Position numbers and translations under genes: made by a program. Of a DNA stretch of 53,013 nt, positions 47,376-49,747 are shown piece by piece; position 1 is the stretch's first letter, and each line of letters opens with the position of its first letter. The DNA is taken from positions 1-53,013 of the forward strand of contig JAHEEX010000003.1 in the NCBI GenBank assembly GCA_024640465.1, in the 5' to 3' direction. This stretch comes from Sphingobacteriales bacterium (GTDB taxonomy: Bacteria; Bacteroidota; Bacteroidia; Chitinophagales; Chitinophagaceae). The notes beneath the pieces were generated by a model, which saw only the letters and a list, made by a program, of their open reading frames with translations, was not told the DNA's origin and made no database searches.

Positions 47376-48758
47376 ATGCGAATATTCCGTTTAATTCCGG
47401 CAGTCCTGCTGGGTGTTTTTTTCATGCCCGTTGTGCATGCTCAATCCGCGGCTGATTCCATCGTACTTCGACGAATGGCAGATGATATACTGCGCAAGAA
47501 TGCTGCGTACGAAAACCTCCGTTTTCTTTGTAAGAAAGTGGGCTCCCGTTTGTCCGGTTCTGCAGGTGCTGAGAAAGCCGTTATAGAAACGGCTCGTATG
47601 CTTCGGGAGGCTGGTGCAGATACTGTTTATCTTCAGCCTTGCATGGTTCCACACTGGGTGCGGGGAGCAAAAGAAGAAGCTAATATTACACTCTCCAATG
47701 GCAAGACCTTCACTTTGAAAGCGGCCGCGCTGGGTAATTCTGTAGGAACACCGGCTAAAGGGATCAGTGCCCATATTATTGAAGTAAAGAATTTTGCTGA
47801 GTTGGATAACCTGGGTAAAGCCGGGGTAGAAGGAAAAATTGTTTTCTATAATTATCCGATGGACCCTACCAATGTGGCCACTTTCAGATCATATGGACAG
47901 GCTGGTGCATACCGGGGCAACGGACCATCTATGGCAGCAAAATATGGTGCCGTGGGTGTAATGATCCGGTCGCTGGCATCTAACGTAGACGATTACCCGC
48001 ACACTGGCGCAACCCGTTATAATGATTCATTTCCCAAATTACCGGCCATAGCCATCAGTACCCGTGATGCAGATTACCTGAGTGAGGCTTTGCAGAAAAA
48101 GCAGGTGACTAAGGCTTATTTCAAAACCAATGCGGAAATGTTGCCCGATGTTCAATCTTACAATGTAGTAGGGGAGATACGCGGCACTGAGTTTCCAGAT
48201 GAAATCATCACCGTAGGCGGCCATCTCGATAGCTGGGACCTGGCCGAAGGGGCGCATGACGACGGCACAGGATGTGTACAGAGCATTGAAGTTATTCGCG
48301 TAATGAAAGCCCTCGGCATTAAGCCAAAGCGAACCATACGTGCAGTAATGTTCATGAATGAGGAAAATGGGTTGAGAGGCGGTACAGCGTATGCAGAACA
48401 AGCCAAAAAAGAAAATAAGAAATTCATTTTTGCACTCGAAAGTGATGCCGGCGGATTTGTTCCCAGGGGATTTGGTGTTTCTGCAAACCCGGATCAGGCA
48501 GCAAAGATTTTTGCCTGGAAGTGGCTTTTTCAACCTTATGGTGCAGGTGATTTCACGTCAGGAGGTGGTGGTGCAGATATAGGACCGTTAAAGCCGTTAG
48601 GCACTGCCATGGCAGGGTTGAGCCCGGATTCACAGAGGTATTTTGATGTGCATCATGCATCTACTGATGTTTTTGAGGCCGTGAGTCCGAGGGAACTTAA
48701 TTTAGGGGCCATTGCTATGGCTGGTTTAATTTATTTGGTAAGTGAATATGGCCTATAA
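47376..48758 (+). CDS. Secreted M28 family zinc metallopeptidase with PA domain
   Basis: This is an exported peptidase of 460 residues, similar in layout to plasma glutamate carboxypeptidase (carboxypeptidase Q). The signal peptide ends at VVHAQS. An N-terminal catalytic part is interrupted by a PA-like domain (about 120-230, NLGKAGVEGKIVFYNYPMDP ... GPSMAAKYGAVGVMIRSLAS). The zinc site follows: TVGGHLDSWDLAEGAHDDGT (His and bridging Asp), FMNEENGLRGG (Glu pair), ESDAGGFVPRG (Asp) and VHHASTDVFEAV (His). All five expected ligands are present, so it should be active on small peptides in the periplasm or outside. It follows the small anchored protein by 11 bases. The exact specificity is unknown. 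Confidence 0.92.
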   Translation: MRIFRLIPAVLLGVFFMPVVHAQSAADSIVLRRMADDILRKNAAYENLRFLCKKVGSRLSGSAGAEKAVIETARMLREAGADTVYLQPCMVPHWVRGAKEEANITLSNGKTFTLKAAALGNSVGTPAKGISAHIIEVKNFAELDNLGKAGVEGKIVFYNYPMDPTNVATFRSYGQAGAYRGNGPSMAAKYGAVGVMIRSLASNVDDYPHTGATRYNDSFPKLPAIAISTRDADYLSEALQKKQVTKAYFKTNAEMLPDVQSYNVVGEIRGTEFPDEIITVGGHLDSWDLAEGAHDDGTGCVQSIEVIRVMKALGIKPKRTIRAVMFMNEENGLRGGTAYAEQAKKENKKFIFALESDAGGFVPRGFGVSANPDQAAKIFAWKWLFQPYGAGDFTSGGGGADIGPLKPLGTAMAGLSPDSQRYFDVHHASTDVFEAVSPRELNLGAIAMAGLIYLVSEYGL

Positions 48759-48760
48759 GG

Positions 48761-48793
48761 AGTCGGGAGTCTTTAGTCGGGAGTCAACAGTCG
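48761..48793. repeat. AGTCGGGAGT word array (family F)
   Basis: AGTCGGGAGTCTTTAGTCGG followed by GAGTCAACAGTCG starts two bases after the M28 peptidase stop codon. It repeats the word AGTCGGGAGT twice and AGTC a further two times. A reverse-orientation relative (CGACTCCCGATACTGTC) is at 465-481. Confidence 0.6.
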
Positions 48794-48873
48794 ATGCCCC
48801 GGTTCGTCTCTCCACGAACCGGAAAACGAGATGTTCACGAAGATGGTTCGTGAGGACACGAACCATGGCATCG
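48792..48873. repeat. Palindromic element folding as an exact three-way junction
   Basis: Outer arms CGATGCC (48792-48798) and GGCATCG (48867-48873) enclose two perfect hairpins. Hairpin 1 at 48799-48822 is CCGGTTCGT, loop CTCTCC, ACGAACCGG. Hairpin 2 at 48843-48866 is ATGGTTCGTG, loop AGGA, CACGAACCAT. Hairpin 1 starts on the base after the outer arm, and hairpin 2 ends on the base before it. They are joined by a 20-base linker (48823-48842). The shared core GGTTCGT/ACGAACC in both hairpins suggests a REP-type or small mobile palindrome family. It is not a tRNA. Confidence 0.8.
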
Positions 48874-48929
48874 TGGTGAAGTGAAAATGGACTCTGAATT
48901 TAACCGCAAAGAAAAGCATCTAGGACGCT

Positions 48930-49631
48930 ATGAGCAAAGGAACTGTTTATCTTATCCCAACCGTATTAGCGGAAGACGGCTTTGCGGCTGTTCCGGCGTA
49001 TACACTTGATGCCATAAAAGCATGTGCTGTTTTTTTTGTAGAAGAAGAAAGAACGGCCAGGCGATATCTCAAAAAGTTGTGGCGGGAGATGGTAATAGAT
49101 CATTACCAGTGGCATGTTATTGATAAAAAAAATCCGGAGGTTAAAAAAGCAATGGAAGATGCGCTGCGTGCAGGCCTTACCGTTGGTATCATGAGTGAGG
49201 CCGGTTGCCCGGGAGTAGCAGATCCCGGGCAGGACCTCGTGGCCCTGGCACAAAGCAGGGGTGCAATAGTGAAACCACTGGTTGGCCCCAGTTCCATTTT
49301 ATTGGCACTGATGGCCAGTGGTATGAATGGACAGCATTTTCGTTTCAAAGGATATCTTCCTATTGATCAGTTGCAAAGGAATAAAGTGATCAAGGAACTG
49401 GAGGCTGATTCTGCTAAAACAGGATGCACACAAATTTTCATCGAAACGCCTTATCGTAATAACCAGATGCTCGACAGCCTGCTGAAAATTTGCCAGCCTG
49501 CAACGCGTTTATGCATTGGCGTAGATATCACTTCTGCTAATGAGAAGATTCAAACCAGGACCATTGCAGACTGGAAGAAAGACATTCCGGAGCTGCATAA
49601 GAAACCGGTGATTTATTTGATAAGTGTATGA
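48930..49631 (+). CDS. Tetrapyrrole methylase-family SAM-dependent methyltransferase (RsmI-like)
   Basis: This is a protein of 233 residues of the Pfam TP_methylase type. It opens with MSKGTVYLIPTVLAEDGFAA, a variant of the glycine-rich first loop. The SAM-binding centre follows in GIMSEAGCPGVADPGQDLVA (RsmI: ISDAGTPLISDPG) and VGPSSILLALMASGMNGQHF (RsmI: PGPSA...ALSASGL). FKGYLPIDQLQRNKVIKELE and IFIETPYRNNQMLDSLLKIC also align with RsmI. It differs enough from RsmI, for example at SEAGCPG, that the 16S rRNA C1402 ribose target cannot be assumed. A family A word (TTTAACCGCAAAG at 48899-48911) lies 18 bases before the start. It is followed by a family C repeat and a convergent gene. Confidence 0.86.
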   Translation: MSKGTVYLIPTVLAEDGFAAVPAYTLDAIKACAVFFVEEERTARRYLKKLWREMVIDHYQWHVIDKKNPEVKKAMEDALRAGLTVGIMSEAGCPGVADPGQDLVALAQSRGAIVKPLVGPSSILLALMASGMNGQHFRFKGYLPIDQLQRNKVIKELEADSAKTGCTQIFIETPYRNNQMLDSLLKICQPATRLCIGVDITSANEKIQTRTIADWKKDIPELHKKPVIYLISV

Positions 49632-49640
49632 ATTGATTTA

Positions 49641-49747
49641 GAGGATAGAGGGCAGAGGATAGAGGATAGAGGATAGAGGATAGAGGATAGAGAATACATA
49701 AACATCTGGATTGGCTGCCCTCTACCCTCTGCCCTCTACCCTCTATC
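49641..49747. repeat. Second inverted pair of GAGGATAGAGGGCAG word arrays (family C)
   Basis: The left array (49641-49693) holds GAGGATAGAGGGCAGAGGAT and then the 7-base word GGATAGA repeated in tandem about five times. The right array (about 49714-49747) is its inverted counterpart, CTGCCCTCTACCCTCTGCCC and CTCTACCCTCTATC. It overlaps the stop codon of the EI24 protein gene. It sits between convergent genes, exactly as the first pair at 33588-33714. Confidence 0.78.

Follow-up and report, generated by a model that had tools for sequence, protein, structure and literature searches.

A palindrome between two genes in the 53,013-nucleotide stretch of DNA analysed here (the window) raises the question of whether it is a REP-type element mobilized by an enzyme like TnpA_REP or a structured RNA or RNA processing site, all of which had been considered in the initial annotation. 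The evidence makes it highly probable that the element is a REPIN, that is, a pair of REP hairpins, which is non-autonomous and is moved as folded single-stranded DNA by a RAYT of one Bacteroidota clade. The REPIN is about 79 bp long and consists of two inverted REP hairpins, each with a GCC foot, a paired lower stem differing from genome to genome, and the constant tip GTG-TCYY-CAC.

Fold and surroundings of the window element

The element is an 82-base clover (48792-48873, not assigned to a strand), in which all 26 of the base pairs described initially (7 + 9 + 10, with a 20-nt linker) are Watson-Crick pairs. REP hairpin A (48799-48822, + strand; CCGGTTCGT/ACGAACCGG) has 9 bp and a 6-nt loop and is followed by a 20-nt spacer (48823-48842, + strand), which is variable among copies. 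REP hairpin B (48843-48866, - strand; ATGGTTCGTG-AGGA-CACGAACCAT) has 10 bp and the loop AGGA and is inverted with respect to hairpin A. Next to the loop, hairpin A of the window has a C where the 22 other copies in the alignment have G. At its foot, hairpin A carries GCC (48796-48798, + strand), which is proposed to act as a guide, and the corresponding foot of the second REP reads as GGC (48867-48869, - strand), which is invariant or nearly so in an alignment of 23 doublets (A1). The 7-bp outer stem (48792-48798 with 48867-48873) does pair throughout in the window copy, but only GCC/GGC is conserved among copies, and the four pairs beyond it rest on variable bases to the right of GGC. The seven-base outer stem is therefore partly local to this copy. 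The window contains a single pair of perfect hairpins of at least 9 bp within 40 nt, and no such pair occurred in any of 10 dinucleotide shuffles, in agreement with the earlier suggestion that this order is unlikely by chance.

The element begins 34 nt past the stop codon of a gene of the M28 peptidase family (47376-48758, + strand; PF04389, E = 2.5e-23) and is followed by an RsmI-like gene of the tetrapyrrole methylase family (48930-49631, + strand; PF00590, E = 1.4e-10), which scored 95.2 bits against TIGR00096, under the cut-off of 167.9. The array reported next to the palindrome comprises two directly repeated AGTCGGGAGTCTTT-like units of 14 nt (48761-48788, + strand), the second 79% like the first, but it lies outside the element. 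Arrays of this AGTCGGGAGT-like, AGTC-rich kind adjoin only a few other copies (e.g., C260 and C22), and the AGTCGGGAGT array is unrelated to the REPIN. Two other features of the window were recorded. The sequence AACCGCAAAGA, with at most one mismatch, occurs 8 times in the window versus 1.3 expected (positions 2902, 10452, 17932, 19325, 35550, 45650, 48902, and 52689) and is also found near many elements. At 49639-49744, a tandem array of TAGAGGA and, after it, the inverted counterpart form a low-complexity hairpin that attracts sub-threshold microRNA matches in Rfam.

Copies in the genome and in relatives

The pattern TGGTTCGTG-N4-CACGAACCA, which is palindromic, so that each place appears on both strands, was found exactly 25 times in the 3.8-Mb genome, and the reversed pattern was not found at all, which is a clear excess. 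Doublets make up 24 of the 25 exact copies, and the remaining one (C260) is a solo hairpin. A covariance model (R2) built on 23 doublets of this genome detected 33 places at E ≤ 0.01, plus two weaker ones (C328b and C324). The window element is 1 of these 33 places (48793-48871, + strand), with a score of 95.7 bits (E = 1.6e-22). A count of doublets by a loose expression (33 of 35) was set aside, since one hairpin can serve twice.

In alignment A1, the 23 doublets share the layout GATGCC-hairpin-spacer-hairpin-GGC, with GCC-hairpin-spacer-hairpin-GGC as the conserved unit, and the GCC/GGC helix is paired in 98.6% of the cells. The inverted feet in this alignment indicate that the two REP hairpins stand in inverted orientation. 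The C85 copy has both of its loops reading in the same direction. Most copies in this genome are near-perfect palindromes, and some are degenerate. According to the loose expression, the foot is GCC at 28 of the 35 places, and a GTAG foot was found at none of the other places listed. None of the 32 places checked lies mostly within an ATG-started ORF of at least 120 amino acids, which indicates that the copies are extragenic and dispersed. A right-hand extension with an TTGTAAACATAGGAG-like end, up to 60 nt past the doublet, was observed at 9 of the 35 places (C234, C149b, C175, C326, C58, C170, C13, C16, and C22) and is absent from the window copy.

Covariation within this genome carries no information, since its copies had been chosen by an exact pattern, and 167 of 500 shuffles scored as high. 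The relatives were searched with R2 under stricter filters, which may have missed some matches. In total, 33 of 98 genomes of the family, including the present one, had a match at E ≤ 0.01, nine of them a single match. Within the genus, the repeat was found in 1 of 41 genomes, namely the present one, and in none of its 40 congeners. The lower stem in relatives differs yet stays paired (e.g., GGTTTGTG, GGTTGGTG, and TGATGCGTG). In an alignment of 55 matches from 18 loci (A2), 94.8% of the cells pair, 19 of 22 stem pairs changed on both sides, and 191 cells changed on both sides versus 46.8 ± 5.6 in shuffles (0 of 500 as high); these counts are inflated and not independent, since A2 is model-fitted and holds both strands of each palindrome. 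In part of the relatives, the foot is CTA/TAG instead of GCC/GGC, having changed as a pair, although such pairing of the feet is also expected of any two REPs that share a foot and stand inverted to each other. Among 166 hairpins at 80 loci of the RAYT clade described below, the foot found by expression was GCC-like in 99, CTA-like in 13, and other in 54, so that it is less uniform in relatives than in the present genome. With some thirty copies in its genome and stem pairs that covary in relatives, the element is neither unique nor devoid of covariation, which together had been named as the refuting outcome.

RAYT genes beside the hairpins

A Y1_Tnp search of 17 genomes revealed a second, weaker Y1 class, of which the member in genome G047 (L103) sits between two elements. 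The model NF047646 identifies this class as RAYTs, with 92.4 bits for L137 (cut-off, 80) and 74.9 bits, just under the cut-off, for L103. At E ≤ 0.001, NF047646 matched in 77 of the 98 genomes, 43 of them above the cut-off. By this model, any RAYT was present in 31 of the 33 genomes with an R2 match and in 46 of the 65 without, and the presence of any RAYT hardly separates the genomes; a single RAYT clade does better.

Scanning 48 RAYT loci with R2 located the repeat next to the RAYTs of seven genomes, G028 (L185), G044 (L172), G047 (L174), G083 (L182), G091 (L173), G096 (L178), and G003 (L175, the same gene as L167). Locus L186 also matched, but its element had been the reason for choosing it. 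The seven hairpin-flanked RAYTs fell within a clade of nine with support of 100/98 when 46 proteins were placed in a tree. The other two members, L165 and L166, had no R2 match nearby (2 of 9 clade proteins without a nearby hairpin). No match was found near any of the 27 RAYT loci outside the clade (L138 to L164); another RAYT outside the clade, L133 of G005, had a weak match about 120 bp upstream (25.3 bits).

An independent set of 80 loci was collected by similarity to the nine clade proteins (alignment A4), as the best 80 of at least 237 relatives. Hairpins had no part in this choice, and at least two of the loci (L236 and L243) are seeds again. A perfect tip-type hairpin of 8 bp occurred within 320 bp of the protein match at 60 of the 80 loci and was lacking at 20, and control windows 960 to 1,300 bp away contained one at 1 of the 67 loci whose flanks were long enough. 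The exact core of the window element was present at 20 of the 80 loci, including those of Niabella drilacis and Pedobacter terrae, and R2 matched at E ≤ 0.5 anywhere in the stretch at 62 of 83 loci (the 80 plus three congener loci). Record titles of the 80 loci carry Bacteroidota names, except for one Ignavibacteriae. A loose tip expression was set aside, since it matched at 65 of the 80 clade loci but also at 6 of the 27 RAYT loci outside the clade. The repeat core clusters on a quickly built RAYT tree, where, with 59 of 77 rows labelled, it required 11 changes versus 24.4 when shuffled (0 of 200 as low).

The scores to A4 over the 98 genomes show a gap between 138 and 127 bits, and the 28 genomes with a RAYT of at least 138 bits were defined as having a clade-like RAYT. 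At least five R2 matches were found in 13 of these 28 genomes and in 6 of the 70 others (Fisher's test, P = 6e-5), and any R2 match was found in 15 of 28 and 18 of 70, respectively (P = 0.017), with kinship ignored in both comparisons. In the nine proteins of A4, HIH, W, and Y.H.NP are invariant; the variants are DH in L165, WK in L182 and L165, WE in L166, YLHQNP in L185, YIHGNP in L178, and YIHWNP in L165 and L166. By motif, length, and taxon, the clade appears to fit TnpA-REP subclass 2.6. Taken with the dispersed doublets and the covariation in relatives, the same hairpins beside this RAYT clade favor the REP-type element with a TnpA_REP-like enzyme among the possibilities raised initially.

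Under the REPIN reading, a strand exposed, for example, as the lagging-strand template would allow the doublet to fold into the clover. A RAYT (TnpA-REP, HUH/Y1 family) of the clade resembling subclass 2.6 may then recognize the foot, with GCC as a putative guide, together with the tip, and cut, after which the doublet would re-insert elsewhere, between genes.

The RAYT gene that the initial annotation proposed to look for was found in relatives, as the clade with the same hairpins, but a search with A4 did not find a clade RAYT in the assembly of the present genome. This absence is unproven, since the assembly is 93.6% complete and lies in 330 contigs. The RAYT behind its copies is lost, unassembled, or of another clade. 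Two RAYT-like genes of this genome, C132 (E = 2.7e-14 to A4) and C157 (E = 7e-5), were rejected as partners, being long-branched, outside the clade, and surrounded by other repeats. Their loci (L170 and L171, respectively) lie near different repeats, an GGTTTCCAAAACC array and GTCAGACCGGG-type repeats. Together with the present genome, five others with at least five R2 matches lack a clade-like RAYT. A clade RAYT was not found in G009 (100% complete, 6 contigs) and G048 (83% complete), both of them repeat-rich, or in G057, G076, and G082 (6 to 8 R2 matches each). Because a clade RAYT is missing even from the nearly closed genome G009, confidence in the REPIN reading was lowered slightly, from very high to high. 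Genomes G052 and G061, with 4 and 2 R2 matches, respectively, gave no RAYT match at E ≤ 0.001. Conversely, the congeners G098 and G104 have a RAYT that is clade-like by score and no R2 match genome-wide; no hairpin of at least 7 bp lies within 320 bp of their RAYT loci, and the G104 gene has a stop.

It is quite conceivable, with a chance only a little short of even, that the element is the same but that a RAYT of another clade moves the copies of this genome, or that they form a fossil family that has lost its RAYT. Such a situation would be one state of the REPIN explanation and does not exclude it. The present assembly, G009, and G048 are all repeat-rich and without a clade RAYT, the repeat does not occur in the 40 congeners, and some copies are degenerate, all of which speak for this state. 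Yet most copies keep near-perfect palindromes, the two RAYT-like genes of the genome have other repeats around them, and the gene may simply be missing from an assembly that is incomplete and fragmented.

Other readings and known REP systems

It is very unlikely that the element is a structured RNA, a terminator, or an RNA processing site between co-directional genes that has been conserved for its RNA fold. The element does lie between two plus-strand genes, and the fold of 48740-48890 as RNA has a z score of -1.91, with 4 of 200 shuffles as good, although this is only a moderate excess. However, the clover is not the RNA minimum, losing at -39.1 by 0.9 kcal/mol to a long hairpin (-40.0) in which A is cross-paired with B, whereas the minimum structure as DNA contains the clover and, in addition, one small hairpin. 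A kissing interaction of the loops of A and B was rejected, since the loop complementarity is not kept among the aligned copies. The same doublet is present at 33 places, and neither an Rfam match nor a terminator-like site was found at the element.

The short IS200-like Y1 protein encoded on C323 (L027:4918-5337) is very unlikely to be the enzyme that moves the repeat. This protein is full-length (PF01797, E = 5.4e-22), and two doublets lie on the same contig, about 1.2 kb upstream, but its 11 closest relatives occupy the same place in the shikimate operon with no R2 match in the surrounding stretch, and the repeat-rich genomes G003 and G048 have no match to the protein at all. It is IS200-like by NF033573 (59.7 bits; cut-off, 55) and scores 26.5 bits against REP_Tyr_transpos (cut-off, 80). 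A MITE derived from IS200/IS605 was likewise rejected, since the C323 gene has no such hairpin at its ends and the nearest doublet is about 1.2 kb away. The gene itself is a single-copy gene between the DAHP synthase/chorismate mutase gene and aroB, in the present genome as well as in the 11 best-matching others among 98 genomes searched (L060 to L070), and looks vertically kept and is perhaps domesticated. Its tyrosine motif YLDRQEEYH resembles that of subclass 1.2 as described in PMC6006769; the corresponding expression matched only this protein of 12. Several other Y1 genes of the family (L071 to L078) adjoin hairpins of another type (e.g., CTCCGGCATAAATGCCGGAG in L078).

Direct duplications specific to the locus, about 21 to 170 bp long, bracket the copies at C85, C251, C170, C101, C58, C326, and others in this genome, as well as L198 (G096) and L224 (G055). 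An alignment score of 37 between the two flanks was reached by 14 of 71 elements (9 of 31 in the present genome, 4 of 20 in G096, 1 of 2 in G055, 0 of 9 in G048, 0 of 7 in G009, 0 of 1 in G058, and 0 of 1 in G083), a count that omits four tandem elements of the present genome (C323a, C323b, C328a, and C328b). In 9 of the 14, the end of the left copy lies no more than 3 nt from the element. If the elements had inserted at random into an old repeat present in two copies, the modelled probability of this would be 4.5e-7. However, the score of 37 was also reached at 134 of 1,684 test positions between genes, which fell in 5 of 21 loci (24 of 208 in a first sample), and 59 of the 134 also end within 3 nt, so that with so high an empirical background no excess of flanking duplication is shown. 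Tandem duplications between genes, which are common in this genome, are enough to explain much of the flank signal. It is unlikely that REPIN insertion duplicates its target, leaving the element between two locus-specific copies of about 21 to 170 bp, the left one often ending at GCC. If it did, a repair- or replication-coupled route of insertion would be implied, since such a duplication would not arise from Y1 transposition as known.

The REPINs of Pseudomonas fluorescens SBW25 have feet of the GTAG type, in contrast to the GCC foot of the present family. Like the family described here, they are reported to be inverted doublet units, intergenic, with two alternative folds, a long hairpin and a "clover," and with repeat types specific to their RAYTs (PMC3116915). 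Excision reads are reported in that account, whereas movement is inferred for the present family. REP/BIME elements and TnpA-REP of Escherichia coli share with it a foot 5' of the hairpin and a Y1 HUH enzyme, but the descriptions give them a GTAG foot and a mispaired stem, whereas there is no GTAG here and the stems are mostly perfect (PMC6006769 and PMC8266576). A classification of REPs into GTAG and CGTC superfamilies likewise describes short palindromes that are dispersed and tagged at one end, the GTAG ones with RAYTs, but the GCC tag is of neither type (PMC3733652). The route by which REPs spread is described as remaining to be elucidated (PMC8266576).

The closest counterpart is TnpA-REP subclass 2.6 of Quentin et al. 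(2018; PMC6006769), which is placed in Bacteroidetes, with the motifs NH[LIV]H, WQ, and YIH[QN]NP and a length of 179 amino acids, and corresponds in a table to group 5 of Bertels. Manual inspection is described as having revealed "atypical secondary structures" on the flanks of its genes; these lack GT[AG]G and recur at other places in the same genome. The present clade is alike in taxon, motifs, a length of about 180 amino acids, and repeats that flank the gene and are copied elsewhere. It differs in that its repeats are defined here by a GCC or CTA foot, a tip that stays constant, and a stem that covaries, whereas the available part of that description carries no repeat consensus, and in that the cognate gene was not found in the assembly of the present genome. 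The motif of a GCC foot with a constant tip was not found in the titles and abstract beginnings of the open-licence literature on REPINs, RAYTs, and Bacteroidetes REPs. The kind of element is already known, and what is added here is the description of its motif, the covariation of that motif, and the numbers.

For a Bacteroidota RAYT clade whose repeats have been little described, these results provide a searchable and testable grammar, consisting of a GCC/CTA foot, a GTG-TC..-CAC tip, and a covarying lower stem, and the repeat core and the RAYT lineage go together. Because the doublets are abundant, nearly perfect, and without a GTAG foot, they are well suited to studying which features a RAYT recognizes.
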